Source: a virus
DNA: 34,475 bases
Reading direction: 5' to 3' (one strand)
IMG/VR virus record: IMGVR_UViG_3300030329_004398
Span: 1-34,475 of that record
The position numbers and the translations under genes are program-made. Positions 1,909 through 22,181 of this stretch are shown here, in pieces (position 1 is the stretch's first letter; every line of letters starts with the position of its first letter). The notes below the pieces were generated by a model. The model had not been told where the DNA came from, did no database searches, and worked only from the letters and a program-made list of their open reading frames with translations.

Positions 1909-1946
1909 GCCCTCTCTCTCTGCACGGGGAGGGAGGGCTTTTTTTT
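1909..1946 (+). terminator. Intrinsic terminator after the capsid genes
   Basis: A 12-bp stem (1909-1920 with 1927-1938; GC pairs and two G-U pairs), a 6-base loop TGCACG and a run of eight T (1939-1946) form a textbook Rho-independent terminator. It lies between the decoration gene and the tail adaptor gene, so tail genes would be transcribed by readthrough at a lower level than capsid genes. Confidence 0.9.
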
Positions 1947-1956
1947 GAGAGGGGAT

Positions 1957-3258: not shown

Positions 3259-5333
3259 GAAATACAAAGATAGATGTACCTGTCCTGAACGGTATTCAGG
3301 AACGACAACCACAAAGCAAAGACTTTGCCGATGAGATTGTGAACATGAGAGTGGACCCGACCACCGGCGGGTGGGATTCCCGCATTGGATACGAAAGATT
3401 TCTCGTTAAGAAGGATGTTTTTGTTCCGTGGGAAGCGGACAACAGGATTGAAAGCATCTACTACTGGAATCGCAGGGGTGGGGCAGCTGATATTCTGCTA
3501 TACCAAACGGGAACAAGTTTGAAATTTGTACAGGATTGGAACGGAACCACGGTTTCAGGAATAACGCTGGCGAATGTTCCCAAAGCATCAAGCACGACAA
3601 ACGCCATACAATATTGCGAGTTCGGTAAATGGCTTATTGTGGCATTTGGAGAGGGGCAGCCGATAAAGTTTTCAGGATGGCCCATACCGGCATCCGCTTT
3701 GGCTACGAATCTGCCTCTTTTCAACGTGGGTTTCCCTATACGGCCTTCGCCCCCGAGACCGAGAAAACCGGAAGTAGATCCGACCGTGGATTTTCCTACT
3801 TTTGCAGCGGAGAACAGCCTGTTTTTGAGAAGAGACAATCCCAGAGGACAGGGTCTTGGTAAAGCCGCTGGAACCACCAATACATTTAGATACAAGGTTT
3901 CTTTTGTTTCAAATACAGGCTCTGAAGGTCCTCTTTCAGACCCCAGCTCTCCTGTCATTTGGGATACAGGCGCGGCGGCCGCTCCGACATATGAGTATCA
4001 ATTTTGTATTGCAGTAGACATTCCAACAGGACCGGACGGCACCGTCGCTCGAAAAATATACAGAACGGCAAACAGCGGTTCAGTCTATTATTTTGTAGAT
4101 GAAGTCAAAAACAATGTTGATGAAACATACCATGATTTAAGAAGGCAGGATGATTTGGGTATAACCGAACCCCTTTCATCTGAAAGCATTTCTTTTCCAG
4201 CCCAAGATGCGAGATATTGCGCGACATTCCAGTCATGTCTTTTTTTAGACGGTGGATCGGCTGAGGATACGACGCTTTATTTTTCTCATCCCTTAAAGCC
4301 AGATCAATTTGGTGCTCTTGATTCAATGGAATTAGGATTGCGAAAAGGTGGCGGGATAACAGGATTGGTTAATTACTTTAACTTTTTAATTGTATTGCGG
4401 AATTCGTCCATTGATATTGTCTCAGGGTCATACCCCAATTTCACATCCCAAACGATTTTGCAGGGAATCGGCAGTACGGCAATAGATAGCGCGGCAACAA
4501 TCCCGGAGCTGGGGATTGTCTTTGCCGCGTTTGACGGAGTGTATCTCTTAGCTGGGAATCTCCAGTATATCGACAAGCCCGAAATGATGAAGATTAGCGA
4601 ACCTATTTCTAAGATATGGAAACGGGTGAACAAGGACCAGCTTTCACGTGCTGTTGGTAGCTATTCGCATAAATACAGGGAATATCACTTGTATCTATGC
4701 GTAGACGGCTCAGACATCCCCAATCTGGGCCTGGTGTTCCATGTTGAAAAGAAATCCTGGTCGATCAGGGAGAGTTTCCCGGTTTCGGGCCTGGATACGG
4801 ACGGTCAAGGCAACTTTCTTTTCGGGCACAATGAAGGAGCTCAGACGGGCGAGCCTAAGCAATGCGGCGTGTTTGTTATATCAGGGAAGAGACACTTAGG
4901 GGAGAAACAAAGTGATGATATCCTGACCCTACAGGGGCCACCGACCTGGAAAATAAAGTCACCTTGGTTGGATTTTGGTGACCCCTCGATAAAGAAGAAG
5001 GTTCATCATGTAGCATTGCACATGTATACAACTGGAGACCAGTCCATAACGATGAAGGTCAGAAGAGATTTTGATTTTACAGCGGATACAGCGGCAAACC
5101 AAGTCGCGCAACGTCCAGAATATGAAGATCAAATAACCTATGATGTATCCACGCTCGACGGATCAAACACTTGGCAGGCAAACCTTCTGACCACCATCCG
5201 GTGGGATGTCTACAATAGCTCGTGCAACCATTTTCAATGGGAGGCTTCCGGAACGGGAGATGTCATCGTGGTTGGGTACGAGGTTCTTTTCACGGCGAAT
5301 CAGATGAAGATGATAAAGGGAAAAACGTCATGA
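3255..5333 (+). CDS. Tail nozzle / tail tubular protein B-like
   Basis: A 692-aa beta-rich protein following the adaptor, the place of T7 gp12. A segment near residues 390-440 (GIGSTAIDSAATIPELG followed by IVFAAFDGVYLLAGN) matches the pattern of podovirus nozzle/stabilisation proteins, in which a beta-propeller repeat reads roughly 'GS.a..S......G..f.s.DGvYll.G'. The N-terminus (FADEIVNMRVDPTTGGWDSR) resembles the 'N...d...gg...RpG' opening of this family. Length is near T7 gp12 (794 aa). It would form the hexameric lower tail tube through which DNA leaves. The start overlaps the previous stop (ATGA). Confidence 0.72.
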   Translation: MRNTKIDVPVLNGIQERQPQSKDFADEIVNMRVDPTTGGWDSRIGYERFLVKKDVFVPWEADNRIESIYYWNRRGGAADILLYQTGTSLKFVQDWNGTTVSGITLANVPKASSTTNAIQYCEFGKWLIVAFGEGQPIKFSGWPIPASALATNLPLFNVGFPIRPSPPRPRKPEVDPTVDFPTFAAENSLFLRRDNPRGQGLGKAAGTTNTFRYKVSFVSNTGSEGPLSDPSSPVIWDTGAAAAPTYEYQFCIAVDIPTGPDGTVARKIYRTANSGSVYYFVDEVKNNVDETYHDLRRQDDLGITEPLSSESISFPAQDARYCATFQSCLFLDGGSAEDTTLYFSHPLKPDQFGALDSMELGLRKGGGITGLVNYFNFLIVLRNSSIDIVSGSYPNFTSQTILQGIGSTAIDSAATIPELGIVFAAFDGVYLLAGNLQYIDKPEMMKISEPISKIWKRVNKDQLSRAVGSYSHKYREYHLYLCVDGSDIPNLGLVFHVEKKSWSIRESFPVSGLDTDGQGNFLFGHNEGAQTGEPKQCGVFVISGKRHLGEKQSDDILTLQGPPTWKIKSPWLDFGDPSIKKKVHHVALHMYTTGDQSITMKVRRDFDFTADTAANQVAQRPEYEDQITYDVSTLDGSNTWQANLLTTIRWDVYNSSCNHFQWEASGTGDVIVVGYEVLFTANQMKMIKGKTS

Positions 5334-7439: not shown

Positions 7440-8117
7440 ATGGGAGTATTGGGAGCTTTGGCGATAGCAGCAGGAGTGGGCACTGCAATAAAGACAGGTG
7501 CCGGCATGTACCAGGCATCGACAATCTTTGATGACAAGGATGAGAGACGCTTAAGAAGACTTGAGCGTTTACAGGCTGCAAAAGAGCTGGGCATGACGGA
7601 AGATGAAATAAATGAAGCCCGGAACCAGCTGACCACCCAAATCATCAGACCGGCGATGGCCGCGGAAAGGCAATCAAGAGATACTCTTGCCGCGCAGCAA
7701 AGCATAGCAGATATTGGAAGCGGACAAGCGGCAAGACAGCAGGCTGCCATAACCGGTGTGGCCCAGAGGGAGAGGGGTCGAGCCGAAGAAGCAATCGAGC
7801 AGCAATTGCAGCAACAAAAAATGCTTGCAGAGCAGCAGGACTTGGCGGAGATTGCCATGCTCCGGGAAAAGAAGAAAGAAGAGAAAAGGCAATTCTGGGG
7901 TGCTCTTGCGGGAGGTCTCGCAGAGGGAGTGGAAGCGGCAGGCGCATATCAAGCGGCAAAGCTACAGGAAGCAAACCAAACCATGCAAGCAGAATGGATG
8001 CAAGCTCAAACTTTAGCGGCTCAAAATCAATCCCAATATCTAAATCAAATGATGATGAATCAGCAGAGAATGCTTTGGGGCGACCCCATGGTGGGTCCAC
8101 CTTCCCCAGGAGGCTAA
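7440..8117 (+). CDS. Internal virion protein, gp14-like position
   Basis: A 225-aa protein after a strong AGGAGG site. Residues 3-22 (VLGALAIAAGVGTAIKTGAG) form a hydrophobic Gly/Ala-rich segment. Residues 35-165 are charged helix with many Gln and Glu, a second Gly/Ala-rich stretch lies near 160-178 (FWGALAGGLAEGVEAAG), and a Gln/Met/Asn-rich tail follows. Size, hydrophobic start and helical body fit T7 gp14, which inserts in the outer membrane during DNA ejection. The two following genes are in the order expected for gp15 and gp16. No sequence similarity to gp14 can be claimed by eye. Confidence 0.6.
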   Translation: MGVLGALAIAAGVGTAIKTGAGMYQASTIFDDKDERRLRRLERLQAAKELGMTEDEINEARNQLTTQIIRPAMAAERQSRDTLAAQQSIADIGSGQAARQQAAITGVAQRERGRAEEAIEQQLQQQKMLAEQQDLAEIAMLREKKKEEKRQFWGALAGGLAEGVEAAGAYQAAKLQEANQTMQAEWMQAQTLAAQNQSQYLNQMMMNQQRMLWGDPMVGPPSPGG

Positions 8118-8118
8118 T

Positions 8119-9876
8119 ATGAAAGCAGCAGACTTTTTCAAAATGGCTTACAGCGACAATAACACAAACATTATGTCGCTTTATCTTAGTCAAATGCAGC
8201 AATCCCAGAGAAGCTCCGTTGCCAGGCAGCGTGATATATCAGCCAGGATCTCCAGGCTTGAGACCCAGCTCGGCAGGTTTCGTCGTGACTACAATTTAGC
8301 CATTCAAAAAAACCCGGGAAGGAAACGAAACTTCGAGATCCTAAAGCAGAACTACAGAGAGCGGAACAGTCTTCGTACTGAGATTGGAAAAAACAACCGA
8401 GCACTGCTATCGGCAGGGGTTGATGTCGCAAGCATACAACAACGCAGTCAGGGAATGATGCTGGAAGCCCAGCAAATGAAAGCAAGAATAGAAAAGAATG
8501 TCAGAAAAGAATGGGAAGCGACATCCAAAGTTAAAAAGCTTGCTGAAGAACTGGATGATAATGCAACAAGAACACGTACGCTTGGTCTTGATACGGCAAC
8601 AGTTGATGTTGCAGGTTTAACAGACAAACAAAAAATCATGTTTGCAAGTCTTTTGTACACCAAGCTGAAGGACCATAAAAACTTAGGAACCCCAGAATCG
8701 ATAAAATCGGCAATCGAAGGAAAATACGAAACAAGCGTTTTAACCAACAGAGAAATAAATCAGCAATTGAATAAAGATATTGCCGCTGCAACAGGAAAAA
8801 TAAAAGGCGCAGGCAGACAACTAATTAGGCTTGGTGGGAAGGAAGTTAATCTTGTCAAGGAAGTTGAAAAAGCTAAAAAAGAATTGGAAAAAGTACAAGC
8901 TGCAGTAAAAGCATCCGAACAAAAATTAAATATAAACCCTGAACAACAAAACAAGATTAATAAGTTGAGGGCAAATAAGGACCTTATTGCATATCTTGAG
9001 GATGCAAAAGACTACCAGATTGACGGGTATTATACGGATGAAAAAGGCCAGCAACGACAATATGACCAAAGAGCAGCAAATGAAGCCAGGGCGGAGTTGC
9101 TGGCTATTGGAATGCAAGACCCTGCTCAAGTGCCACTTGAGGAAATTCAGCTTCTCGACAGGACCGGGTATCTTGAGATAGAGGCGAACAAGAGAGCGTT
9201 GGAAGCACAGATGCGCTCTATTGGAACGGATTCTACGTTGCCTCGCATGTTGGCAGCCCCTCAATTCAACCTATTTACTCCTATTGGCCAAATAAACTCT
9301 TATATCCGCGATATGAAGTCCGGTCTGGAGAAGAACAGACTCATGGCAGGGCAAATAGCTGAAATGGGAGAAAATCCTGAATTTACGCGTTTGTACAACA
9401 ATGCTGCTCCAAACCAAAGGATTGTCTTTGCTGTCATGCCCATGGTGTCTGACAGGGTTAAAAACGTAAAGGACGGTAAGCTGAATCCCGAAACGGGTAT
9501 CGAGAAGAAGGCGGCCCAATACATAACTTCGTTGCAGACAGGAGGTAAGGATTGGTCACCCAATCTTCGGGCCCCGGCATTGGTTGACATGGCCGAAAAT
9601 CTCTATGGTGACAACGAAACCAAGAAGGCCGAATTCATAACGTATGTTCTTGCCGCGCAGCAGGTTAAAATGGCACCAGGATATACTTACGAAAAAGAGA
9701 CAGCAAACCCTGAAAAGTTTAAAAAATCTGCTCGAAGAAAATTAGTTAAAGAAGCAGAACAAGAAGGCTCTACTTTAGAAGAGATAGCTGCTGATCTTTG
9801 GGAATCAAAACCATTTTCTATAGGAACCAATGAAGCTTTAGACAAAGAACTTATGGAAGAAATGGGAGGTAACTAA
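8119..9876 (+). CDS. Internal virion protein, gp15-like position
   Basis: A 585-aa protein, almost wholly helical and charged. Coiled-coil-like stretches occur at about 28-140 and 220-290 (KEVEKAKKELEKVQAAVKA). There is no signal peptide and no catalytic motif that I recognise. It is flanked by the gp14-like and giant gp16-like genes, and shares one base with the latter (TAATG). T7 gp15 (747 aa) is likewise helical and forms the middle of the ejection channel. Function is assigned by order, size and composition. The 3' end (from about 9700) is visibly more AT-rich than the middle. Confidence 0.55.
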   Translation: MKAADFFKMAYSDNNTNIMSLYLSQMQQSQRSSVARQRDISARISRLETQLGRFRRDYNLAIQKNPGRKRNFEILKQNYRERNSLRTEIGKNNRALLSAGVDVASIQQRSQGMMLEAQQMKARIEKNVRKEWEATSKVKKLAEELDDNATRTRTLGLDTATVDVAGLTDKQKIMFASLLYTKLKDHKNLGTPESIKSAIEGKYETSVLTNREINQQLNKDIAAATGKIKGAGRQLIRLGGKEVNLVKEVEKAKKELEKVQAAVKASEQKLNINPEQQNKINKLRANKDLIAYLEDAKDYQIDGYYTDEKGQQRQYDQRAANEARAELLAIGMQDPAQVPLEEIQLLDRTGYLEIEANKRALEAQMRSIGTDSTLPRMLAAPQFNLFTPIGQINSYIRDMKSGLEKNRLMAGQIAEMGENPEFTRLYNNAAPNQRIVFAVMPMVSDRVKNVKDGKLNPETGIEKKAAQYITSLQTGGKDWSPNLRAPALVDMAENLYGDNETKKAEFITYVLAAQQVKMAPGYTYEKETANPEKFKKSARRKLVKEAEQEGSTLEEIAADLWESKPFSIGTNEALDKELMEEMGGN

Positions 9877-12800
9877 TGGCACTGCCCTATCCCCAGGTTC
9901 CTGGTGCTGCAAAAGCTCCTAAAAAAAGAAAACAGTTTGACCCTGAAGAACTCGCCAGGCTTCAGGAACAGGAAGTCATGCTTTCCGAGGAGTTGGATTA
10001 CATCAGGCAGAACAACGCATTGCCCCCTGGTGATACTCCCAGAAATGAATTTCTTAACAGGAATGTGGATATCGAGGCATACACGATGCAGTTACAGTCT
10101 CGATTGGGAGAGCTTGCATCGAAGCGTCAGGAGCTTGAAAAGGAAGTTAGGGAGTTTGAATACCGCTCTGCAATGCAGCGAGCCAGGGAAGAGGACATTG
10201 CAGCAGACCCGCGCACTCCAGCGCAGAGGGGCAGAGACAGAAAACAAGAAGAGCAGATTGATAGACAGATAAAAGCCATCACAAGAAGGATTACAAACCA
10301 CCAGCTTGAAGGCAATGAGAAGGGGGTGGAAGAAGAAAGGAAACGCTTGAGGCACCTTCAATTCCAAAAGCATCAGATTCACGTTCCCACGACACGTAAG
10401 CAAGCTCAGGTGTACGAGCTTCATGAAGCAGAGAAGGCAAAATCCCGGACGCGACTGATATCAAACTTCATCAACAGAACGATGAAGCAGCTCAGAAGAA
10501 CCCATCCTGATATGGAAGAGTCTAAAGTACACGAGCTGGCACTGAAAAGATTCCAGGATGCCGTCGGAACCAAAGCCGTAGAGCCATCAGGTGAGTTTGC
10601 TTATCTAAAAGATGCGCCTGATGTTACTGTTGACTGGGAGACGTTCACGATGTACGACCCCGAGCTGGGGACCAGGCGACGCATGACTAGAGAAGAAGGT
10701 GCTCGTCTTGCCAGGGAAAGGCAAATCTTACATCTTCCCAAAACGACATTGGCCATGTTGGAGAACAGGAAAAAGCCCCAGGCGTTATTTGATTCGATAC
10801 AGAATCAGCTAAGGGGTCTCGATGAAACCAGAGCTATGTTGACGCGCCTAAGGAATGACCCACAGGTGAGGGGCAGGATATCGGAAGAAGAATTCAACAG
10901 AAGAATGCTTGATATCGCATCGGAAACCGAGCGTCTTGAAAAGGCGAAAATAAAAGCCAAAGCCAAATTAGATTTGCTACCTGATCCAAAGAATCTTTCC
11001 TGGTTCCTTACGCCCGAGGCGCGACCTGGTGGGGTGGTCGTTGAAAACTGGTATCAGCATAAGCTTCGTTATCTTTTGACATTCGCATCGATGGGAACAA
11101 CCGCTCTTCTCAGGGAGGCATCAACTGTAACAAAGGACCCCGATAAGCCAAAGTCTGAGTTTGGTTATTTTGAGATTCTTCCAGATGCCCCAAGTATTCT
11201 GAGAACGAAGGAGGAGGGAGGTCTTGAAGGAGGAGGCGGATTTGACTGGTGGAACAGCGAAGCAATGTCCGCAGCGCAAGCGACAATGCCTATGTTTAGC
11301 TTCATGACAAAGCACTACCCCGGCATTGTCCATGGGGGCACAGGAACACGATTTACCGCTGCCGTTCTTGCAGGACTGGGTGACATAGCCATGCCTGTTG
11401 GTCCCGAAGCCTTGGGTATCGTTGCAGCAAAGGCTGCAGCTCCCATCGGGGCGGGTATCAGTGGAGTGGCAAAAACAGGGAAGGTTGCTTTAAAGGTTGG
11501 AGAAAAGGGGCATAAGTTTAGAGAATCAGTGCGGAAGTTGCGAAGGCAAAAAAGCAGGGGAATCGACAAACAGAAGATAAAAGTAGCCAAGGATATACTG
11601 GACAAGGGTGACAGGCTCGGCCGTGCCATAATGACTTCGGGGTTTTCCGAAGGGAACAAGTATCTGGCGAACACGACTGTAAAGGCCATGACGGTCAGAC
11701 AGGTCAATGATGCACTCGACAAGGGAAGCGGAGTTGAAGGCTCATGGCTGAAGCGACGATTTAAAGGGATTGGGGCTGCTTTTAACCCCCTGGAAAACCC
11801 GAGCACGATACGATCTGCCGCTGCGGGCAAAGTAGCGGAACAACTGGCGGACAGCCTGGGGAATCAGTCCGCTGCGATCAAGGCATTCAAAGCCAATCCG
11901 GTCGAATTTAAAGCCTGGATGAGTGAAACATTGAATCGTGTTCCACATGGAACAGCAGATGAAAGAGCCATGAAGGCTATCCTGGCGAGTGACTCCATTG
12001 ATTTGGACACGATATTCAAGGCGTTTAGGAATGAAGCTATCGGTGCCTCGAAAGAGATAAAGGATGGGATTCTGAATAGCGCACTCATGCAGCGGGAAAA
12101 GATAGCCAAATACATCAATGATGAGTTTGCAACGATTGACAGTGATTTTCTCGACATGTTTAACAATCGATTGTTTGCTGCTCGAATCATTGAAGAGAAT
12201 CGCTTATTGCCAGAAATCACCCGGTCCCTGGATGATGGAACCTTCGATGCCCGGACCATCGTTGATGGTGCCACCCCTGAGCAAATACAGGCGGCGGCGA
12301 AGGAAACGATGCAAGACTATGTGGAGCTGAATCTCTTCAACCGGGCACCCAACAACATGATATTCGTCACCAGGGATTTGCTGGTCGATGAAACGCTGGG
12401 CGCAGATCCAAACTTCGCAAGAGCGATTGCGGAGAAGTCTGGTAAAATCTACAACGAAATGAAAGTCTTAGAGAATGGAGATACGACCTTCGGGAACATG
12501 TCCGACCTTGTCTCCAGGATTATCATCACCAACAAGGGAACAGATACGATCAGAAGATCACCCAAGTGGAGGAGCATCCTTCGCAACGTCATAAAGAAGG
12601 AAGGATTGAACATGGAAGACATGAGTCTTGTCCATGATCAAATCAAAAGCTACTATGCCAAACAGACGGCAAAGGAGTTTGCTGACAGAGGACTGGCATT
12701 TACCGGCCGAAAATCAATCGCAGCACCTTCAAGGCCCTTGGAGACCCCTGCTGGCGCTCTTATGACAGAGCGAGCGTTTAAGTATGCTTCTGGAACACCC

Positions 12801-15800
12801 AGGGAAAGGAGACCGTTTAGTCCTACAGACTTTTTTAGAAGAACGGGTAGTCAGACCGATATTATCACCTTGCAAGGCCTGGCGAAGGCCAAGAAAAGTC
12901 TTCTGGGAAGACTGGGCCGCAGGTATTCATTAACCGAAAGAGCACCCGTGGCCGTGCAGAACATGATGAAAGACATGAAGGCAACGGACTCGGCTGTTTT
13001 TGAAGATATAGTCAAAACATTGAAAGAAGGCTCAAAGAGAAAAGAATCTCCTCCTGATATAGTAAATGGATTGATATCCAGAAACATCGAAGATCAAGTT
13101 GAGTTTTCCCTTAACCAGCTAAAAGATGCAGCGTCCCGGCGCGGGGTGGATCAGTTTACTGCAGCAGAGATTAAAACCTTTCTGGCTTCGCAGGACATGA
13201 GCAAGCATCTTCCTCTATTCGAAGGGGAGAGTTTCCTTCTGAAAGATGTTGTCGAAACCCTTAGGCCTGCAATAAGAACAGATAAACAAAAAAAGTTTTT
13301 TGAACGGTATCTGAAGACTTTTTTCCAATTTACGAAAAAAGAAACGAAAAAGAAAATACCTAGATGGTTAGAAGGTTTTGAAGAAACAGATATTGAAGGC
13401 GCATTGAAATGGGTCAGAGAGAGAAGCGGAGAAACCTTAAAGCAGAGAGGAATGGCTCTTAGAAGATTTGAGCTTTCGGGAGAGGCCTATACGGAAGCTG
13501 CTCTTGTGACCATTGCAAACGACATGAGCAAACTACGCAATAATAAGATTATCGACGCTTCCCTTATGAACAATCCTTCGCTTCGATTCGAGCTTATACC
13601 CAGTCTACGGGCAGAACGGAAAGGTGATTTTCTGTGGAACGGCACCTACGGATATCGGGTAGATGAAGTCATGGAAGGCATCATATCCGAACACAGAGGC
13701 AGATTGACGGATGATCAAATCAACCTTCTAAAGGAATCGAAGGGATATCAGGATGCCGTTAATTCATTGAACAGAGCCTACATGCGTGTATGGTCTAACT
13801 TCAACAATCCTCGCTACGTTGGAAAACAGCTTGATGTAATGCTTAAAGGTGCTCTTGAAGAAGGCATAGATGGATTGGACGAGGCTGTTGAATCCATAAT
13901 TGCAAAAGATAAGGCATTTACCAGAGACATAAATAACGCAAGCAATCAATTGGGGAACGCAGTTAGAGCCAGCGAAGAAAGCAAAATAATACGAACGCTT
14001 AAGCAAAAAGAACAATTAATCCAGACGCTGCCCAGGGATCAGGTGATCATCCAAAAACAGGAGCTAAGAGAATTAAAGAAATCCAGAGCAACGTCTGACA
14101 AAGCTGCACGAAAAGCGGCCAGGGAAAAAAACAAAGAGACCATTGATCAGAAACGTGAAGAGCTTATGGTGGAAGAGGGTATTGCCCCTCCCATGGCAGC
14201 AGACATAAAAGCTCCGCTTGTTAAGAAGCGTCGCGAGATAATGAAAGCATACAGAGAACACATGAAAGGTGTGAAAAAAGCGTATTGGAAAGAAAGGAAT
14301 GCTTTAATTCGAGAGAAGAGAGCGAAATTCAGAAAGGAACAAGGCCTGATAAGACATACCAGGGAGGAGCGAAAACGAAGATACGACATCGTTAGAAAGA
14401 ATGTAAAAGAGTTTATCAAACGTGAAATGGAAAACATTCAGATAAAATACGATGCGTATGATTTGAAGATGAAAAAGAAGCATGGCATACCGGAGAAGAT
14501 GACGGATAGCGAATACGACATCATGCGGAAGAAATACCACCAGGAAAGCCAGCGATACAACAAAGAAACCTTCCTGGATAGAGAAGGAGTAAGAAGAGAA
14601 GAAATCAGCAGAGTTGTTCAATCAATCAGCCCGAGAATTGCTGATGACTTGGATTTAAAACAAATCGATGACCTCGTTGAGGCTGACGTTCTCGCTAGAT
14701 TCGACGCGGTTGAAGCCAAGCACAAAGTGGAGCGAGCAGCGATGCGAGCCAATTTTGAAGCGCAAGTGAAAGCCGGGGAGATGACCGAACAGCGTATGCG
14801 GTCAATGATATACGGCTACAACCGATACAAATACTTTGACAAATGGAATGAGATTGACGACTACACCATTGATTCCTATGCCAGGCATTTTGACCCAGAG
14901 GGAGACGTAGAAGGCCTGGCGGCTGCAGTGCGGGATGAGATGCGGGAATGGGATGCTGTCTGGGGCATGAAAAGAAGAGACGCAAGAATTGAACACATGA
15001 ATCAAAAGAGGTTGGAATGGGGCTTCCCCGTAAAAGACCCTGAGAAGGCTGCAGCATACAAGAAAGACATGAAGGAATATGCAAAAGCCCAACGCATAGA
15101 ACACATAGAAAGAAGAAAAAAGCATCGAGAAGCTCAGATGAAGGAACAGGAGCTGGTGTCAATGAAAAGAGAAGAGCTTGAAAGAAGACAGTCAGTCGTT
15201 AGAGAACGGATGAAACAATTCAAAGAAAAGCAAAAGAAAGCCAGTGAAATAGAAAAGGAAAAATGGAAAGAGGAGAGAACCCAGAGATGGGATGAAGTCA
15301 GCAAAAAGTTAGGCTTGCGTAAGCCTGTGAAGGGCAGAGAGGAGAAGATGAAACGTATTGCTGAAAAAATAAAAACTCTTCGCAAAAAACTCCAGGAAGA
15401 GATGAATGCCTTTAAGGATAAACAAAAGCTTGATTATGCTAAGTTTGGAGAAGCCGAACGGGAACGGTTAGGCTTGAAGAGAACGCTCAGCGAAAAGGAA
15501 AAAGCACAAGCCTGGGAGAAGGTAAAGCAGAGAAAATTGGAATTGAAAGATGACGAAGGCCTGGCGACACTGCAGGGCAAAGTAAAGGAAGGGGTTTTAA
15601 GCAGAACACCATACCCAACCCGCTCTGAGTTTGCGGAGTTTGCGGATTTTAATCCGAACATACATCCCTTGAACGATGTTAAAAACAAACTTAAATCCAA
15701 ACTCGAAGACGCGGGTATTGATCTGTACAGCGATGTCGCGCCTGCTGGAATGCTTCAGCAAATCAATCAGATCATTCATAACCCATCGAAGGATCTGGCT

Positions 15801-17318
15801 GTAATTCTGCAGCCAAAGACTATAGAAAAGTTGAAAAATACTCTGAAGAACAAGGATTTTCAAAGAGCCTTGGAAGCGTATTCCGTTAGAGACGCTGAGG
15901 GATCAGCCAAAATATTTAAATGGATCAAAGAAAGCGTAGAGAGAATGCGACAGATACAGACAGGTGGCCTGCTCGGTGGCTGGGTTGTGACCCGGTATGC
16001 AGGTCTTAACATATGGTCTGCCCCTGCTCTGATGATGATGACAAGGGGAGTAGCAGGAACAGCTTCGGATCTTTCCGAATTGGCTGTAAGCTGGTTCAGG
16101 AGAGGGGGCGGAAAGGAAACCATGTTTGTTGATGTCTATGGAAGGCCATGGACATTTGATGAAATAGCTGCTGCAGAAGCGAGGAACCCATTGTTCGCGT
16201 CTGCTCTGGCTGCAGAAATGGACTCAGGCAATCTTGCATACCTTATGGAGGTAATGAAAAGCCATGAATATTCCCAAAAGCTTCGGAAGCTCACTCCATT
16301 TTCAGCCCGAAACTATGTGGCTCGGTTTGCTGATTTTACTGATAGTGTCCTTAGACGTGCTGTATTCCGCAACGGGCTTAAGCGAGGATTGACAGAAGCA
16401 CAGGCAGCAAGAGAAGCGAAGGATGCTCTGTTCGATTATGCCAAGGCAAGAGAAAGCACGGTGAACAGACGGATAGGTCAGGCCCTTATGTTCTGGTCGT
16501 TTCAAGCCGAAAGCATCCGTGCTCTTGCAGATGCAATGGCAAGAGGCGAAGTCAGACCCGTCGTGCATGCATACCGGGCAATCCGCAAAATGGCGCAGCA
16601 GCAAGGCCTGGATGCGCAGGGAAGCAGCTATGACATGGCTCGCGTTTACCGCTACATATCGGAAGACTTCGAGGACAACCCCTCCATAGTTGGCGGGTTT
16701 ACAATACCGGCACTCGAAAGCTTTGGTCTCTTAGCAGAAGGGTTTGGCAACGTTGCATCTGTGGCGGTGGGAGATGCGAGTTTCCAGGAGGCACTATCAA
16801 GGCAGGTTAAAATCCTGACAAACAGAAGTCAGTTTCGGCCCCTTCTTGATGGTCTTATTGCAGAAATCGAAAAGAAAGACGATCTTAGCATGGGCAAGGG
16901 TGGGTTTGTTCCAAATGCCTATGTGTCTGGAATGCCTGATTTTGCATGGGAGGAACTTAAAAACCGAAACTGGATAAAAGCTGTTGACCCCTTGAAGCGC
17001 AGACAAGGTAAAGCTACTCGAGATAATGAGCAATGGAAGTTTGTTGACCACGAATCCAAGGCTGCCTTCGAGCATATACAGCGTGGCATGCTAGCCATTG
17101 GAATCAAAAGAGCAATAGAGGATAACGTGATTAAGACTCGAGCAATATTTGCAGGATCAGAAGAAGGCATGGTTCCCTATCCCTTATCAGGTTCTGGTGG
17201 ATTGTGGGATTTAATATTGTACCATGCTGCAGTAAAATCATTTCTATCTAAACAAGCCGAGGATTTAAAGATACAATATAAAGGATGGCAGATAGAAAGA
17301 TCTTTGCAGCAGCAATAG
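9876..17318 (+). CDS. Giant internal virion / DNA-ejection-type protein (2,480 aa)
   Basis: One open frame of 7.4 kb, about 22% of the genome, in the place of T7 gp16 (1,318 aa). Visible layout: charged helical start (1-370); hydrophobic segments near 395-412 and Gly/Ala-rich near 490-540; a long helical middle; an extremely Lys/Glu/Arg-rich zone (about 1400-1930) typical of coiled coil; then a Gly-rich hydrophobic stretch (about 2027-2060, with GGLLGGWVVTRYAGLN). After that comes a conserved-looking block with LFDY (Phe2186-Tyr2188) and MFWSFQ (2205-2210). A similar 'FDY ... PF..W.r' block occurs in many very large phage virion proteins. No lytic transglycosylase, polymerase, nuclease or ATPase motif was seen. 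Good AGGAGG-like site (GGGAGG) before ATG 9876. Confidence 0.68.
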   Translation: MALPYPQVPGAAKAPKKRKQFDPEELARLQEQEVMLSEELDYIRQNNALPPGDTPRNEFLNRNVDIEAYTMQLQSRLGELASKRQELEKEVREFEYRSAMQRAREEDIAADPRTPAQRGRDRKQEEQIDRQIKAITRRITNHQLEGNEKGVEEERKRLRHLQFQKHQIHVPTTRKQAQVYELHEAEKAKSRTRLISNFINRTMKQLRRTHPDMEESKVHELALKRFQDAVGTKAVEPSGEFAYLKDAPDVTVDWETFTMYDPELGTRRRMTREEGARLARERQILHLPKTTLAMLENRKKPQALFDSIQNQLRGLDETRAMLTRLRNDPQVRGRISEEEFNRRMLDIASETERLEKAKIKAKAKLDLLPDPKNLSWFLTPEARPGGVVVENWYQHKLRYLLTFASMGTTALLREASTVTKDPDKPKSEFGYFEILPDAPSILRTKEEGGLEGGGGFDWWNSEAMSAAQATMPMFSFMTKHYPGIVHGGTGTRFTAAVLAGLGDIAMPVGPEALGIVAAKAAAPIGAGISGVAKTGKVALKVGEKGHKFRESVRKLRRQKSRGIDKQKIKVAKDILDKGDRLGRAIMTSGFSEGNKYLANTTVKAMTVRQVNDALDKGSGVEGSWLKRRFKGIGAAFNPLENPSTIRSAAAGKVAEQLADSLGNQSAAIKAFKANPVEFKAWMSETLNRVPHGTADERAMKAILASDSIDLDTIFKAFRNEAIGASKEIKDGILNSALMQREKIAKYINDEFATIDSDFLDMFNNRLFAARIIEENRLLPEITRSLDDGTFDARTIVDGATPEQIQAAAKETMQDYVELNLFNRAPNNMIFVTRDLLVDETLGADPNFARAIAEKSGKIYNEMKVLENGDTTFGNMSDLVSRIIITNKGTDTIRRSPKWRSILRNVIKKEGLNMEDMSLVHDQIKSYYAKQTAKEFADRGLAFTGRKSIAAPSRPLETPAGALMTERAFKYASGTPRERRPFSPTDFFRRTGSQTDIITLQGLAKAKKSLLGRLGRRYSLTERAPVAVQNMMKDMKATDSAVFEDIVKTLKEGSKRKESPPDIVNGLISRNIEDQVEFSLNQLKDAASRRGVDQFTAAEIKTFLASQDMSKHLPLFEGESFLLKDVVETLRPAIRTDKQKKFFERYLKTFFQFTKKETKKKIPRWLEGFEETDIEGALKWVRERSGETLKQRGMALRRFELSGEAYTEAALVTIANDMSKLRNNKIIDASLMNNPSLRFELIPSLRAERKGDFLWNGTYGYRVDEVMEGIISEHRGRLTDDQINLLKESKGYQDAVNSLNRAYMRVWSNFNNPRYVGKQLDVMLKGALEEGIDGLDEAVESIIAKDKAFTRDINNASNQLGNAVRASEESKIIRTLKQKEQLIQTLPRDQVIIQKQELRELKKSRATSDKAARKAAREKNKETIDQKREELMVEEGIAPPMAADIKAPLVKKRREIMKAYREHMKGVKKAYWKERNALIREKRAKFRKEQGLIRHTREERKRRYDIVRKNVKEFIKREMENIQIKYDAYDLKMKKKHGIPEKMTDSEYDIMRKKYHQESQRYNKETFLDREGVRREEISRVVQSISPRIADDLDLKQIDDLVEADVLARFDAVEAKHKVERAAMRANFEAQVKAGEMTEQRMRSMIYGYNRYKYFDKWNEIDDYTIDSYARHFDPEGDVEGLAAAVRDEMREWDAVWGMKRRDARIEHMNQKRLEWGFPVKDPEKAAAYKKDMKEYAKAQRIEHIERRKKHREAQMKEQELVSMKREELERRQSVVRERMKQFKEKQKKASEIEKEKWKEERTQRWDEVSKKLGLRKPVKGREEKMKRIAEKIKTLRKKLQEEMNAFKDKQKLDYAKFGEAERERLGLKRTLSEKEKAQAWEKVKQRKLELKDDEGLATLQGKVKEGVLSRTPYPTRSEFAEFADFNPNIHPLNDVKNKLKSKLEDAGIDLYSDVAPAGMLQQINQIIHNPSKDLAVILQPKTIEKLKNTLKNKDFQRALEAYSVRDAEGSAKIFKWIKESVERMRQIQTGGLLGGWVVTRYAGLNIWSAPALMMMTRGVAGTASDLSELAVSWFRRGGGKETMFVDVYGRPWTFDEIAAAEARNPLFASALAAEMDSGNLAYLMEVMKSHEYSQKLRKLTPFSARNYVARFADFTDSVLRRAVFRNGLKRGLTEAQAAREAKDALFDYAKARESTVNRRIGQALMFWSFQAESIRALADAMARGEVRPVVHAYRAIRKMAQQQGLDAQGSSYDMARVYRYISEDFEDNPSIVGGFTIPALESFGLLAEGFGNVASVAVGDASFQEALSRQVKILTNRSQFRPLLDGLIAEIEKKDDLSMGKGGFVPNAYVSGMPDFAWEELKNRNWIKAVDPLKRRQGKATRDNEQWKFVDHESKAAFEHIQRGMLAIGIKRAIEDNVIKTRAIFAGSEEGMVPYPLSGSGGLWDLILYHAAVKSFLSKQAEDLKIQYKGWQIERSLQQQ

Positions 17319-17327
17319 GAGTTAGCA

Positions 17328-17678
17328 ATGGAAGAGTCGATTTTTAAGTACCTGCTGGATTACGGTTCGCTTGGCATAACTGCCGGTCTTCTCTTCTGGC
17401 TTTATCTTCATTCGCAGAAGCAGGTTGATAAGATTCGCATCCAGTCCAGGGAGGACTTGAACATGCTTAGAGACAGGTACGAGGTTGTGATCAGCAAGTA
17501 CGATCAGGACAAGGATCTGTTCTTCAGCGAGCGTCAGCAGATGCACAACCAGGTTGTCATGAAGATCGAATCGATAGAGAAGACAATCGAGAAGCAGGAC
17601 AAGGCTATCGAGTCGATCAAGGATAAGATAGATCAAATCCTGATACTAAGAGAGCACAGAAATCAGGTGGCGGGTTGA
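17328..17678 (+). CDS. Membrane-anchored coiled-coil protein, holin-like (BhlA/UviB-type) candidate
   Basis: A 116-aa protein with one N-terminal membrane segment (about residues 10-28, YGSLGITAGLLFWLYL) followed by a charged helix up to residue 110. This arrangement resembles BhlA/UviB holin-like peptides ('...l...G.faal..wll....k...') and also i-spanins. It stands 9 bp after the giant gene with an AGGAG site and upstream of the amidase gene, so a role in lysis is likely. It is longer than typical BhlA (70-90 aa). A superinfection or virion role cannot be excluded. Confidence 0.55.
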   Translation: MEESIFKYLLDYGSLGITAGLLFWLYLHSQKQVDKIRIQSREDLNMLRDRYEVVISKYDQDKDLFFSERQQMHNQVVMKIESIEKTIEKQDKAIESIKDKIDQILILREHRNQVAG

Positions 17679-17992: not shown

Positions 17993-18137
17993 GATAGTAG
18001 ATGATTTGATGGGCCTCATTTGGAAGCTCTGGAAGTACAGGAAAGGGGGCTACTCGAAGGAGGAGGCTGCCGACCTGGCAGATGATTTGATGGGTCTGGC
18101 CATGGGCATCGTTGCCCAGTACATCGAGAAGAAATAA
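17973..18137 (+). CDS. Small hypothetical protein with internal duplication (54 aa)
   Basis: A 54-aa gene beginning at ATG 17973 (AGGTG six bases upstream) and sharing one base with the amidase start (TAATG), which supports translation. The product is amphipathic helix with two copies of DDLMGL (residues 10-15 and 37-42); the DNA repeats a 14-mer exactly at 18000-18013 and 18081-18094, 27 codons apart. Two hydrophobic faces (LIWKLW, LAMGIVAQY) suggest membrane-surface binding or self-association. By position it may be a lysis helper, but no family is recognised. Confidence 0.6.
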   Translation: MPDIKVEIVDDLMGLIWKLWKYRKGGYSKEEAADLADDLMGLAMGIVAQYIEKK

Positions 18138-18550
18138 TGGGAAGGCAATCCAAGGTATCCAAGATCTATGTCCACCACTCCGCCTCTCCGAAGGCGAGTA
18201 CCGACGCGGCAAGAATCCGCCGCTGGCATATCGACCGGGGCTGGAACGACATAGGCTATCACTGGGTGATCGAGCATGACGGGAAGATCGTGAAGGGCAG
18301 GGAGGAGAACATCGTGGGTGCCCACGTCAAGGGGCATAACCGAAACACCCTGGGCATCTGCGTGTGCGGCAACTTCGAGAACGAGCAGCCCAACCCGATA
18401 CAGTGGACGCTGCTATGCTGCATGCTTCAGTACCTGATGTACAAGTACAAGCTCACGAAGGAGGACATCAGCTACCACAGGGCAGCTGCTGCCACTGCCT
18501 GTCCGGGAAAGAATCTGATCACGAAGTTGAAGGAATGGCTGGGGGAGTGA
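18137..18550 (+). CDS. N-acetylmuramoyl-L-alanine amidase (T7-lysozyme type endolysin)
   Basis: A 137-aa Amidase_2-family protein, close in length to T7 lysozyme (151 aa) and without extra domains. It cleaves the bond between muramic acid and L-alanine in peptidoglycan at lysis. Expected zinc ligands are His13 (YVHHS), His114 (SYHR) and Cys122 (ACPG), with the eight-residue His-Cys spacing found in T7 lysozyme. Tyr41 in GYH matches the catalytic Tyr46. T7 Lys128 is replaced by Thr120, seen in other family members. There is no signal peptide, so export needs a holin. Since no phage RNA polymerase is present, the polymerase-inhibiting role of T7 lysozyme is not expected. The gene looks more GC-rich than its neighbours. 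Confidence 0.92.
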   Translation: MGRQSKVSKIYVHHSASPKASTDAARIRRWHIDRGWNDIGYHWVIEHDGKIVKGREENIVGAHVKGHNRNTLGICVCGNFENEQPNPIQWTLLCCMLQYLMYKYKLTKEDISYHRAAAATACPGKNLITKLKEWLGE

Positions 18551-18993
18551 TAAGATTCGATAAGGCCATACAGGGAACCAGGGAGAGCGATCACTACGCT
18601 ACACCTAAATCCTTCTATGTCCAATTGAATTCCGAATTTAAATTCAGTCTTGATCCATGCCCACTGCGAAGCACCTTTAACGGATTGAAGATGGACTGGG
18701 CTGGTTCGGTTTATGTCAATCCTCCATACAGCAACATCAAACCCTGGATCGTCAAGGGGTTAATGGAATTGCAGGCGAACAGGGCTAAGACCATTGTGTA
18801 TCTGCTCCCCGTTCGTACGGACACAGCATACTGGCATGACCTGATCCTGCCAAACGCAGCGGAAATAAGACTTGTCAGGGGCAGGCTTAACTTCAATGAA
18901 ATGAAGACACCTGCCCCCTTCCCGGTATGCCTCGTTATTTTAGAACGGGGAAACATACAGCTAAAACTCTCCAGTTACACGCAAAGAAAATAA
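18535..18993 (+). CDS. DNA adenine-N6 methyltransferase (phage Dam family)
   Basis: A 152-aa protein of the phage-type N-6-adenine methyltransferase family. The opening DHYATPKSFYVQLNSEF and DPCP (residues 40-43) follow the family pattern 'd...TP..f...l..ef.f.lDp.a', and NPPY (62-65) is the catalytic motif. Methyl transfer from S-adenosylmethionine to adenine would protect phage DNA or mark it. The start is uncertain: ATG 18535 overlaps the amidase end by 16 bases with AAGG one base upstream; GTG 18547 gives a GTGA overlap and 148 aa. Base composition is lower in GC than the amidase, so it may be a later arrival. No partner restriction enzyme is present. Confidence 0.85.
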   Translation: MAGGVIRFDKAIQGTRESDHYATPKSFYVQLNSEFKFSLDPCPLRSTFNGLKMDWAGSVYVNPPYSNIKPWIVKGLMELQANRAKTIVYLLPVRTDTAYWHDLILPNAAEIRLVRGRLNFNEMKTPAPFPVCLVILERGNIQLKLSSYTQRK

Positions 18994-19033: not shown

Positions 19034-19575
19034 AGAATCTCCGAGAGGTAGATGGATGTCACAATCTCCTCATCCACCCCGGCGAACCAGCAATCCGCCT
19101 GGATGGAATAGATCTGGCTGTCGTTCTGTATGACCCCGGCATCCTGGAGGATATCGAACAGGCTCTTGATGCGGTTGTCGATATCCCCCCTTGTCTTGTA
19201 GCAGGGCAGCCTGTCGTTCTTCGTCAGCTTCCGTATCTTGCTCTTGGGTTTCTTAATCAGGAAGACAATCTCTATCCTAAGCGCACCGGTCAGGGTCTCT
19301 CCCTTCCATGCCTGGCGCAGTAGGAAGGCACCCTTCGTCTTAAAATCCCGGTAGGTCTTTGGGTAATAGGTGATGCCCGTTCGCATGACCCTGGGCCTGG
19401 GAGCTGGGGGGATCTCGATATCGATCTGTATCTTCTTTTCCTCAGGGCACGGTCGGTTTCTCGCCAGGCGAACTATCTCATCGAGTAGCCATCGCTTCCT
19501 GGTATGATAATCATTGACCGTTTTATCGAGAGCATGAAGCTCTTCCGCTATCGCTTTGAGTTTACGGCTATCCAT
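19030..19575 (-). CDS. rusA: RusA-type Holliday junction resolvase
   Basis: A 181-aa protein. The second half follows the RusA family: a start strand IEIPPAPRPRVMR (about 53-65), then GDIDNRIKSLFDIL (130-143) and QNDSQI (150-155). The three acidic residues that bind metal are Asp131, Asp133 and Asp152. RusA cuts four-way DNA junctions, here probably resolving replication or recombination intermediates before packaging. An extra helical N-terminal region of about 48 residues precedes the usual domain. ATG 19575 lies within the end of the primase gene (8-bp overlap), with AAGGA about eight bases upstream; an in-frame start at 19593 is less well placed. Last gene of the early block. Confidence 0.88.
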   Translation of the reverse strand: MDSRKLKAIAEELHALDKTVNDYHTRKRWLLDEIVRLARNRPCPEEKKIQIDIEIPPAPRPRVMRTGITYYPKTYRDFKTKGAFLLRQAWKGETLTGALRIEIVFLIKKPKSKIRKLTKNDRLPCYKTRGDIDNRIKSLFDILQDAGVIQNDSQIYSIQADCWFAGVDEEIVTSIYLSEIL

Positions 19576-21877
19576 TGTAGTAGTCCTTTGCATCGAGTTT
19601 GGATATCAGCTCCTCTTCCCTCTCCAACTGCTTCTTCATCGCAAGCTCATCGGTAAGCGGCACATCGTATATGGTTCTTCGATGCCCGTACTTCACTCCG
19701 CGCCGGGACGTGCATCCGTAGTTCCGAAGTATCTGTGGGATATGACCCGACCATGTCTTGGGTTTCAGCTTGGTGCGGTCTCGATGATAGCAATCTTTCA
19801 CCACCTCCAATACGGTAATCTCCTGCCCCTGCTTTCCTACAAGCCATTCGTGGACCAACTGCTCATGGGAATCCTGCGGCTTGAACTCCGCATTCTTCTC
19901 CTTGCTCCAGGCAAACTCCTCCTGCGTCAGCCAGTACAGGCATTTGTCATAGCGGTAAGATCCGTCCTCTCTCTCTGACCTTCCCTCCAAATAGTAGTGC
20001 ATGGCTTCTGCCCACAGGTGTGGCACGACATCTCGCAGTTCCTCCTCATCGTAGGTATCCTCGTACTCCTGCGCCTTGCTTTCCATGATCCACATTCGGC
20101 GCGACCCCTTTGCGTCGAGGTTGAAGCTGTCCTCGTTCGTCGATCCAACCAACGCGCACCTGCGAGGGTGGTACTCCTGCTTGTATCCCCAGGGCTCTCG
20201 GTACATGTCCGCCTTCAGGGTGATGAAGTGCCGGATGTCCTCGATCATCTTCCCCTTCAGGTTCGCCAGCTCCGCCATCTCCACGATCCATCCCTGTCTC
20301 AGCTTGGCTTTGCCGTCCTTATCCGTGATGTCTATCTTCTCATCGACAAAGCATCCCATGGACAGGGCTTCCCATAGCTTGGACTTCTGGATTCCCTGCT
20401 CCCCCTTGATGATTAAAACGCTATCGAGCCTGCACCCCCAGTCCATGGCCCGTGCCAGTGCTCCGATGAAAAATTTACGGGAATACACTCGATTGATGGG
20501 GGTGTCCTCAACCTTCAACCACTTGATAAAGAACCCATCAATCCTCTCCTCATCGCCAGGTCTCCATTTGGGCAGAGCCTCCAGCTTTTCCCGGAGGGGG
20601 TCTCGTGGTCGCTGCGCCGCTGCCCCGTAGAATGCTCGCAGGAATACCTGGTTCCCGATGGATGCTGCCCCTGGGTTCAATTCGCTGGTCACCTCGATCC
20701 CCAGGTTGTCTATCTCGTAGTCCTCCAGCCTCTTCTTTCCCTTGTAGGCAACGCCTGTCCTGATGTCCAGCCACAGATCGGAATGGGTGGCTGCCATGTG
20801 GCGCATGGCATTCCCTCTATCGACGATGGGTTGGTTGCTCTTCTTGTCGAGAACGATACCATTTCTGCTTGTGATGGACCGGAAGTGTGTTCGCGTTGCG
20901 TTCGATGTCAACGTGAAAAGCTCGTACCCGGACATGAGACCCTGCTCTCTCTTAAGGAATGCAGACCCTGAGGTGGTTCCATTGAAGGGGCAGATGCAAT
21001 TGATGTATCCCTTTCGATTGCTGCGAAAATCCCTGGCGAATCCATCCCAATCGTTGATGATCTCCTGCATGGTGTATCGCTGTCCACGCTCGACAAGCTG
21101 AACAGAGATCTTTTCAGGAGAGACATACCGAACCTTGTACTTGCCGTCGGTCTCAGCATTGCCATCGGAGGGTGGGGCCAGAGGTATGGGCATGCTCCCC
21201 TGGGTTTCCCGTACCTCCTCCCTGGACTGCATGACAGCATCCACGTCGACGCATGCCCCGTCGTTTCTCTTGTTCCATCGAGCTCCCCTCCGGTCATCCC
21301 GACATGAGTGGACATACCAGAAGCGTGCCGGGTCCTTCGCTGCAGGGTCACACTCCGGGCATAGCTCGCGGATGGCTACCCTCCAGAAGTGGGGCCATTC
21401 CTGCAGGGTCACGGGCCTGGACAGTGGCAGCACCACGCGGAAGCAGTGCCCCTTCTTCAATGGTGATCCGTTGCTGAACGTCGAGTGCGCGTTGTAGGTG
21501 AAGCTCTCGAGCCTCTCCAGGATGGGCCCGCTATCCCGTATCCCGTCTAGGTCCAGCACCAGCGCATGTATCGAGCGCACCTTGTCCTCCGAGCGAGAAC
21601 CTGTCGTTGCGCTCCAGGTGACGGGTGCCCATAGTTTGATGTCCAGTTTCCCCAGTTCCGATTTCTTTACCGAGCCATCAGCCTTGCGTCGCTCGGATAC
21701 GCTTCGGTTCGTCGAGACCATGTAGCGTTCCTCCCCGAGGAAAGTGGCAACAGGAACCTCGTTAATCCATGCCTTGGATAGCTCGTTTGTAGCCCCCCAT
21801 CCCCTCTTCGGAGCTGGGTGGATGCTGACGGGGATTCTCCATTCCCCATATTTTTTTTGTTTCCCCTTGAATTTCAT
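19568..21877 (-). CDS. VirE-type primase-helicase (prim-pol plus P-loop ATPase)
   Basis: A 769-aa two-part replication protein. The N-terminal part has the archaeo-eukaryotic primase/prim-pol pattern: LVLDLDG (about 105-112) and later GHCFRVVLPLSRPV. The C-terminal part (from about 450) matches the virulence-associated-E family. It has a P-loop GEQGIQKSK (about 490), an acidic Walker B-like WIVEMAEL (about 532), and LVGSTNEDSF with SRRMWIM, as in these ATPases. It would make primers and unwind DNA at the origin; no phage DNA polymerase is present, so host polymerase is implied. ATG 21877 is chosen (AGGGG ten bases upstream); a start at 22009 would add 44 basic residues and overlap the preceding gene. 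Confidence 0.87.
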   Translation of the reverse strand: MKFKGKQKKYGEWRIPVSIHPAPKRGWGATNELSKAWINEVPVATFLGEERYMVSTNRSVSERRKADGSVKKSELGKLDIKLWAPVTWSATTGSRSEDKVRSIHALVLDLDGIRDSGPILERLESFTYNAHSTFSNGSPLKKGHCFRVVLPLSRPVTLQEWPHFWRVAIRELCPECDPAAKDPARFWYVHSCRDDRRGARWNKRNDGACVDVDAVMQSREEVRETQGSMPIPLAPPSDGNAETDGKYKVRYVSPEKISVQLVERGQRYTMQEIINDWDGFARDFRSNRKGYINCICPFNGTTSGSAFLKREQGLMSGYELFTLTSNATRTHFRSITSRNGIVLDKKSNQPIVDRGNAMRHMAATHSDLWLDIRTGVAYKGKKRLEDYEIDNLGIEVTSELNPGAASIGNQVFLRAFYGAAAQRPRDPLREKLEALPKWRPGDEERIDGFFIKWLKVEDTPINRVYSRKFFIGALARAMDWGCRLDSVLIIKGEQGIQKSKLWEALSMGCFVDEKIDITDKDGKAKLRQGWIVEMAELANLKGKMIEDIRHFITLKADMYREPWGYKQEYHPRRCALVGSTNEDSFNLDAKGSRRMWIMESKAQEYEDTYDEEELRDVVPHLWAEAMHYYLEGRSEREDGSYRYDKCLYWLTQEEFAWSKEKNAEFKPQDSHEQLVHEWLVGKQGQEITVLEVVKDCYHRDRTKLKPKTWSGHIPQILRNYGCTSRRGVKYGHRRTIYDVPLTDELAMKKQLEREEELISKLDAKDYYNG

Positions 21878-21924
21878 GATACAATTTCCCCTGGATAGTC
21901 TTATCCTGTTTTGTAGTGGTCTTT

Positions 21925-21956
21925 CCCCGGTCGTTGTTCTTTTCCTGCGGCCGGGG
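21925..21956 (-). promoter_or_regulatory. Hairpin in the leader of the primase-helicase gene
   Basis: CCCCGGTCG (21925-21933) and CGGCCGGGG (21948-21956) pair with one mismatch in nine, in the 85-bp gap between the ribbon-helix-helix gene and the primase gene. No T-run follows on the minus strand, so it is not an intrinsic terminator. It may slow ribosomes or RNases between the two cistrons. Confidence 0.5.
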
Positions 21957-21962
21957 ATTCTT

Positions 21963-22181
21963 TTATTTTTCGCGTGCTGCGATCTTCTCGCTTGTGTTCT
22001 GCAGGGCATTGGCTACCATGCGTGCCCGCTTTGAGATATAATCCTCAATCGCTATCGTCAGCCCGTCCTTTATGGATCGGCCATCGTGTGCGCAGATCGC
22101 CCGAAGTGCTGAATAGGTTGTGACATACATCTCGAGCGGATAGACCGCCCGTTGCCTGGATGGGATCTTCTTCTTTGACAT
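21963..22181 (-). CDS. Small ribbon-helix-helix (CopG/Arc-like) DNA-binding protein
   Basis: A 72-aa protein. Residues 12-20 (AVYPLEMYV) can form the DNA-reading beta strand, followed by helix YSALRAICAHDG, a turn, and helix SIKDGLTIAIEDYISKRA, the layout of ribbon-helix-helix dimers. Such proteins repress or control copy number by binding operators. It sits immediately upstream of the primase-helicase gene, so control of replication gene expression is likely. The start has a strong AAGGA site eight bases upstream. The first third lies over the tail end of another frame (22045-22341). The assignment is by secondary-structure pattern only. Confidence 0.66.
   Translation of the reverse strand: MSKKKIPSRQRAVYPLEMYVTTYSALRAICAHDGRSIKDGLTIAIEDYISKRARMVANALQNTSEKIAAREK

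Follow-up and report, generated by a model that had tools for sequence, protein, structure and literature searches.

To our knowledge, the giant ejected proteins known are enzyme carriers, such as the N4 RNA polymerase and the DarB-like proteins, and belong to phages of about 60–75 kb. T7 gp16, which participates in the channel, is a very large third protein encoded with gp14 and gp15 behind the tail genes, and it carries an annotated endolysin-type domain. In N4 (Schitoviridae), gp50 is the virion RNA polymerase; with gp51 and gp52 it makes up a small/medium/giant layout (150/644/3,500 aa) and it is ejected last. In N4 and DEV, the two smaller proteins, as oligomers, form an outer-membrane complex and a periplasmic tunnel; the giant passes after them, and its N-terminus comes to lie close to the inner membrane (PMC12633501). 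The DarB-like giant of the Lessievirus phages (JC1 gp69, Bcep22 gp75) is likewise the third of a small/medium/giant set. CsCl-purified virions of JC1 contained all three of gp67, gp68 and gp69 (196/510/4,515 aa), the last of them identified by 51 unique peptides, and gp69 takes up 22.1% of its genome (PMC9144972). This protein contains transglycosylase, methylase/helicase-like, LPD3 and LPD38 domains. LPD38 has been reported only in polyvalent proteins of the phage type, for which injection is predicted (PMC5512222).

Here, we describe a giant of 2,480 aa encoded by a far smaller genome, contained in a 34,475-bp viral record (hereafter the window, meaning the whole stretch of DNA analyzed). 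Very probably it belongs to a set of three ejection proteins, of which it is the third and the largest, and is packaged and ejected; it has no recognizable enzyme. It belongs to a new protein family, of which it is the longest member found, but its kind is already known: the giant, cysteine-free ejected proteins of podoviruses.

Gene map of the window and the giant reading frame

The window carries exact 99-bp direct repeats at both ends (1–99 = 34377–34475), indicating a complete circular assembly with a unique genome of 34,376 bp; terminal repeats of their own first bases also occur at the record ends of two relatives. The gene order starts with the terminase genes, small before large, and the portal gene; two small genes come next, and then a reading frame cut off by the end of the record, at the place where the scaffold gene usually lies. 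It continues with the capsid, a decoration-type protein, an SU10-type adaptor, a 692-aa tail protein and three tail/fiber genes, and then with genes of 225, 585 and 2,480 aa, a probable holin, an amidase, a Dam-type methylase and a VapE-type helicase (reverse strand). The main features are as follows.

323–1414, + strand: major capsid protein, Mx8-like (phrog_9953, E 8e-24; tblastn matches to Mx8/Mx9)
1945–3258, + strand: SU10-type adaptor protein, 437 aa (PF24175, E 1.8e-13)
3255–5333, + strand: tail tube/nozzle-type protein, 692 aa (phrog_511, E 3e-12)
7440–8117, + strand: small ejection-type protein, 225 aa, no cysteine, gp14-like position (hydrophobic N-terminus)
8119–9876, + strand: medium ejection-type protein, 585 aa, no cysteine, gp15-like position (homologs adjoin the giants in relatives)
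9876–17318, + strand: giant third ejection-type protein, 2,480 aa, no cysteine (open reading frame and translation, ribosome-binding site, same-slot relatives)
17328–17678, + strand: probable holin, small, with a single hydrophobic segment at the N-terminus (phrog_2429, E 2e-5; amidase gene next)
18137–18550, + strand: amidase-type endolysin (phrog_822, E 2e-35)
29610–31163, + strand: large terminase (phrog_2, E 5e-32)
31145–32860, + strand: portal protein (phrog_1216, E 1e-8)

PHROG and Pfam profile searches of the window returned no tail tube or sheath families, and the lack of a tail-tube gene indicates that the phage is a podovirus. Its capsid protein is distant kin of those of Myxococcus phages Mx8 and Mx9 and Stenotrophomonas phage BUCT555, with 22–26% identity to the capsid proteins of Mx8, BUCT555 and ppBjS10J-1. 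In contrast to the window, the last genes of the structural set in these three phages encode only about 430–860 aa, with no detectable homology to the window's. A capsid profile search of genome contigs found no prophage or host.

The giant gene is a single unbroken open reading frame with an ATG start, preceded by a GGAGGT ribosome site; its start codon shares bases with the stop codon of the 585-aa gene, coupling the two. It occupies 21.6% of the genome, and the three ejection-type genes combined occupy 28.7%. An earlier note on this DNA, made from the sequence alone, had described a 2,480-aa frame filling a fifth of the genome, almost twice the length of T7 gp16 and with no visible transglycosylase or enzyme motif. 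The frame is indeed uninterrupted and 2,480 aa compares with 1,318 aa for T7 gp16. Searched whole or in pieces, the giant also had no match in Pfam or PHROGs, and none among PDB sequences by profile. Weak Pfam matches such as PF06722 and PF03152 were set aside, as they lie below the cut-off and are absent from relatives. No match was found to the whole protein by tblastn in 50,697 phage records, or in a scan of viral contigs for close relatives.

Comparison with individual ejection proteins gave the same picture. Homology to the ejection proteins of T7, P22 and N4 was undetectable by profile comparison. There was no sequence or profile similarity to the T7 gp16 family and no lytic transglycosylase domain in the giant. 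The T7-like RNA polymerase motifs (T/DxxGR, A, B, C) were absent or incomplete and profile similarity to the N4 virion RNA polymerase was lacking, so an identity as RNA polymerase was rejected. P22 gp16 scored 29.5 against a profile of the giant's relatives (A9, described below) and was also rejected, as a reversed control reached 28.5.

A family of same-slot giants and its conserved blocks

Searches with the capsid protein and with the small ejection protein, whose homologs are 24–35% identical, led to relatives of the window, all of them uncultivated. Counting the window, 38 phages of a single uncultivated lineage have a giant of 1,759–2,480 aa in the slot behind the tail genes. The homologous giants of the 37 other phages span 1,759–2,433 aa, and the 37 complete giants have a median length of 2,111 aa (range 1,759–2,480). 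Finding homologous giants in the same slot of 37 other phages excludes chance. Near-complete relatives have genomes of about 30–35 kb, and all with enough sequence have the same-slot giant. Identity of the window giant to its relatives is only 13–19%; with the window protein alone as query, the first link was a match in the C-terminal block at E 1e-10. Relatives of the L110/L112/L117 group share 35–64% identity with one another. A C-half profile of 20 giants, which contains the window giant, scores it at 628 bits.

Pfam and PHROG scans of 23 giants found no known domain except one weak LysM match (PF01476, E 9e-4) in one member of profile A9 (among L250–L265). This match may hint at peptidoglycan contact in the family. 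As a family feature, LysM was rejected, since the motif was not found in any giant.

Conservation along the giant falls into two blocks, residues 241–1080 and about 1500–2480, with a peak at 2040–2280. The segments, with their nucleotide positions, are as follows.

9876–10595, + strand: residues 1–240, long helices, 123–383 aa across the family (alignment; the better part of the N-half model)
10596–13115, + strand: residues 241–1080, conserved N block, with E390 and R398 invariant (alignment of 22 giants and A7)
11364–11468, + strand: residues 497–531, hydrophobic and Gly/Ala-rich, candidate membrane-active segment (hydropathy 1.28–1.51, kept in the family)
13116–14072, + strand: residues 1081–1399, variable insert, 0–350 aa in relatives and nearly absent in several (low alignment occupancy)
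14073–15605, + strand: residues 1400–1910, Lys/Glu/Arg-rich helical zone (40% K+R+E, versus 17–28% aligned in relatives)
15606–17315, + strand: residues 1911–2480, most conserved C block (alignment)
16341–16541, + strand: residues 2156–2222, signature D-x3-LRR-x-VF...G-x-T-x2-QAA-x2-AK...DY...F-x2-F (aligned with the LPD38-flanking segment of giant polyvalent phage proteins)

The earlier note had pointed to a Lys/Glu/Arg-rich helical zone of roughly 500 residues. This zone is real, but it is no family feature: the ordinary charge of all 21 aligned relatives makes it peculiar to the window phage, in which it is probably a spacer. Of the three hydrophobic segments proposed in the same note, 490–540 is clear, with a best 19-aa Kyte-Doolittle mean of 1.51, and the aligned segment reaches at least 1.0 in 17 of 22 giants, compared to 9% of random segments. 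The other two, 395–412 and 2027–2060, are weaker in the window giant (best means 0.88 and 0.94) and better in relatives, and an additional segment at 2262–2310 (mean 1.24) had been missed.

AlphaFold models of the two halves were mostly helical, with mean pLDDT of 51.6 for the N half and 44.7 for the C half, too poor for naming domains. Foldseek matches of both halves served only as a lead, for which profile comparisons run alongside decoys provided the test. The C-half model gave four matches at E < 1e-3 (1e-9 to 6e-5), and the two that are named are phage proteins with large polyvalent protein associated domains. Seven sequences from cultured phages went into a profile (A10) of the LPD38 region, which we compared to profiles of the window family by hhalign. 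The part just before LPD38 scored 39.9 with A6, 35.3 with A9, which excludes the window giant and the A6 sequences, and 30.7 with A3; A9 scored 45.0 against a longer version of A10. By comparison, 40 column-shuffled decoys scored at most 20.5 and reversed profiles at most 19.6. Every alignment fell in one register, the window's D2156...LRR-VF...G-T-QAA-AK...DY...F...F, and the E-value of the relationship was about 1e-3. LPD38 itself (PF18857) had no match above the curated cut-off in the window giant, while the JC1 positive control matched at E 8e-37. The adjoining segment aligns and LPD38 is undetected, which indicates remote kinship of the flank and not LPD38 membership. Judged by these alignments, the C-terminal third is remotely related to the segment adjoining LPD38 in giant polyvalent phage proteins.

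The same C-terminal segment links the window to two other LPD38-type giants, those of Vibrio phage K248 (2,502 aa) and Synechococcus phage MinM2 (2,803 aa), each of which matched the independent profile A9 as a single sequence. Both are near the window giant in length, but unlike it they are clear tblastn kin of the JC1 C-terminus and come from genomes of 60–65 kb. The earlier note had named kinship to a polyvalent protein family unrelated to ejection as a result that would speak against its reading. A remote polyvalent kinship is present, but LPD38 proteins are of the phage type and predicted to be injected (PMC5512222); the kinship thus reframes the ejection idea and does not refute it.

Scarcity of cysteine in ejection-type proteins

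The three ejection-type proteins of the window contain no cysteine in 3,290 aa, where about 42 would be expected from the window's other genes (average 1.28%); treating residues as independent, the probability of finding none at this rate is about 10^-18. The giant alone has none in 2,480 aa, against about 32 expected. Tryptophan is not avoided, with 31 residues in the giant. The triplets of six relatives contain one cysteine in 17,948 aa (238 expected), and the 38 giants together contain 10 in 79,065 aa. The highest count in any one of the 38 is three, in the giant of L265 (4931–11461), a natural exception to the pattern.

We then surveyed other podoviruses, with ejection proteins either proven or assigned by gene order (L146–L148, L267, L270, L271, L275–L277, L279). 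For proven ejection proteins, cysteine counts were 1 in 2,261 aa for T7 gp14–16 (30 expected), 0 in 1,309 aa for P22 gp7/20/16 (11 expected), 0 in 4,294 aa for N4 gp50–52 (29 expected), 0 in 2,416 aa for phiKMV (12 expected), 0 in 2,487 aa for SP6 (21 expected) and 1 in 1,326 aa for Sf6 (14 expected). JC1 gp67, gp68 and gp69 all lack cysteine, as do the triplets of K248 and MinM2. The ejection proteins of epsilon15 are depleted only (5 in 2,574 aa, 27 expected). In T7, P22, N4, SP6, phiKMV, Sf6, LUZ24, JC1, K248 and MinM2, the ejection proteins are cysteine-free or nearly so, and many neighboring structural proteins are not. As a control, we counted two giants of Bacteroides phage BKO1-TP3: its 5,553-aa LPD38-type giant has 8 cysteines, compared to 41 in a second giant of 2,638 aa. 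The latter (L272, 28605–36521) adjoins a reverse transcriptase gene.

The lack of cysteine in N4-like virion RNA polymerases was previously proposed to be needed for passage through the tail and periplasm (PMC3715699, PMC2784036). In the literature covered, which is incomplete, we found no paper that widens this to podoviral ejection proteins generally. The near-absence of cysteine is a sign derived in the present analysis and no formal definition of ejection proteins. Cysteine is also missing from the 853 aa of the lambda tape measure gpH (L278, 1543–4104) and from some scaffolds, so the lack of cysteine alone cannot name an ejection protein. A remark on N4-like polymerases becomes a simple sequence criterion, fully or nearly held in the podoviruses checked, that can help name ejection genes in uncultivated phages.

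Role of the giant

The layout of the window, with proteins of 225, 585 and 2,480 aa behind the tail genes and likewise in dozens of relatives, is that of a podoviral ejection set. The earlier note's placement of the giant as an ejection-type protein in the gp16 position is borne out by this gene order, by a scarcity of cysteine in common with proven ejection proteins and by the remote C-terminal kinship to a virion-borne giant. The resemblance to T7 gp16 lies in the gene position, the absence of cysteine and the very large size of the third protein, although gp16 is half as long and homology is undetectable. N4 gp50 shares the small/medium/giant layout and zero cysteine, but is set apart by its polymerase. 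The JC1 set is like the window's in its three cysteine-free proteins, in a giant of about 22% of the genome and in the pre-LPD38 segment that aligns with the C block; JC1 gp69 differs in its length of 4,515 aa and in the domains listed above, none of them detected in the window's giant. By analogy, the same layout, the lack of cysteine and the virion location of JC1 gp67, gp68 and gp69 support packaging of the window giant.

We propose a route of entry modeled on N4 and DEV; what carries it over to the window is a shared layout and composition rather than homology. The giant would be packed in the capsid and would exit through the portal and short tail, extended or domain by domain, after the 225-aa and 585-aa proteins, the same order as for N4 gp50. 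The two smaller proteins would form the outer-membrane pore and periplasmic tunnel; in DEV, this channel is trumpet-shaped. The N block, with its hydrophobic segment at 490–540, would probably lodge at or near the inner membrane, the C block may be the delivered or gating end, and the charged zone between them could act as a flexible spacer.

A tentative alternative is that the giant is a delivered polyvalent effector or enzyme, like the N4 virion RNA polymerase or DarB, with catalytic domains that have diverged beyond recognition. The resemblance of the C block to the LPD38 flank points this way, given that LPD38 is known only from phage-type polyvalent proteins (PMC5512222), as do the enzyme-like domains of JC1 gp69 (PMC9144972) and of the MinM2 giant (annotation). 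Against this, neither Pfam nor PHROGs revealed an enzyme family in the scanned members, the motifs of T7/N4-type RNA polymerases are absent or incomplete, and invariant polar residues in the alignments of the giants are few and scattered. It is possible, though we would not expect it, that an unrecognized activity delivered with the DNA replaces the enzymes of other giant ejected proteins. If so, a whole lineage of 30–35 kb phages pays about a fifth of its genome for the giant. The lack of a recognizable enzyme in so small a genome makes this a variant worth study, and a 30–35 kb lineage with an enzyme-less giant offers a clean case for the role of non-catalytic parts in DNA entry.

We consider it unlikely that the giant is itself the conduit, a very long trans-envelope channel or scaffold made mainly of the helical zone. 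The models are mostly helical, hydrophobic stretches are conserved and T7 gp16 is part of a channel. However, the small and medium genes, whose counterparts form the conduit in N4 and DEV (PMC12633501), are present; the charged zone is not conserved and the neighboring residues 1081–1399 are nearly absent in several relatives; and in oligomeric tunnels the length of the conduit is not set by the length of the chain. These results speak against the earlier suggestion of an unusually long conduit. The companion suggestion, that several ejection functions are fused in one chain, finds no support if taken simply: the small and the medium ejection protein have genes of their own beside the giant, both in the window and in nearly all relatives whose flanks are long enough, so the giant is no fusion of them.

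Returning to an ejected third protein, we infer its packaging, which leaves a slim chance that the giant is a late intracellular protein merely adjoining structural genes. The near-total lack of cysteine in the window giant and across the 38 giants, together with the presence of the JC1 same-slot giant in virions (PMC9144972), argues against this. Most improbable of all is a tape-measure-like virion protein, to which the N half has a weak Foldseek likeness (E 6e-3 at best) and lambda gpH a likeness in lacking cysteine, as no tail tube or sheath genes were found in the window, the adaptor and nozzle genes are of podovirus type, and the small/medium/giant layout is that of N4 and JC1.

Several other features of the window stand apart from the ejection genes. 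Rfam and tRNA scans gave no match. The VapE-type helicase/primase (19568–22009) is the sole replication gene recognized, and no DNA polymerase was seen in the window, indicating that replication probably leans on the host. The Dam-type methylase frame as listed (18364–18993) overlaps the amidase frame (18137–18550) by ~190 bases, and its true start is likely downstream of 18364. Between the portal and the next structural genes lies a gene for a zinc-ribbon (FmdB-like) protein with 7 cysteines in 119 aa (32860–33219), and one relative (G014) has a similar cysteine-rich gene of 132 aa near its portal.
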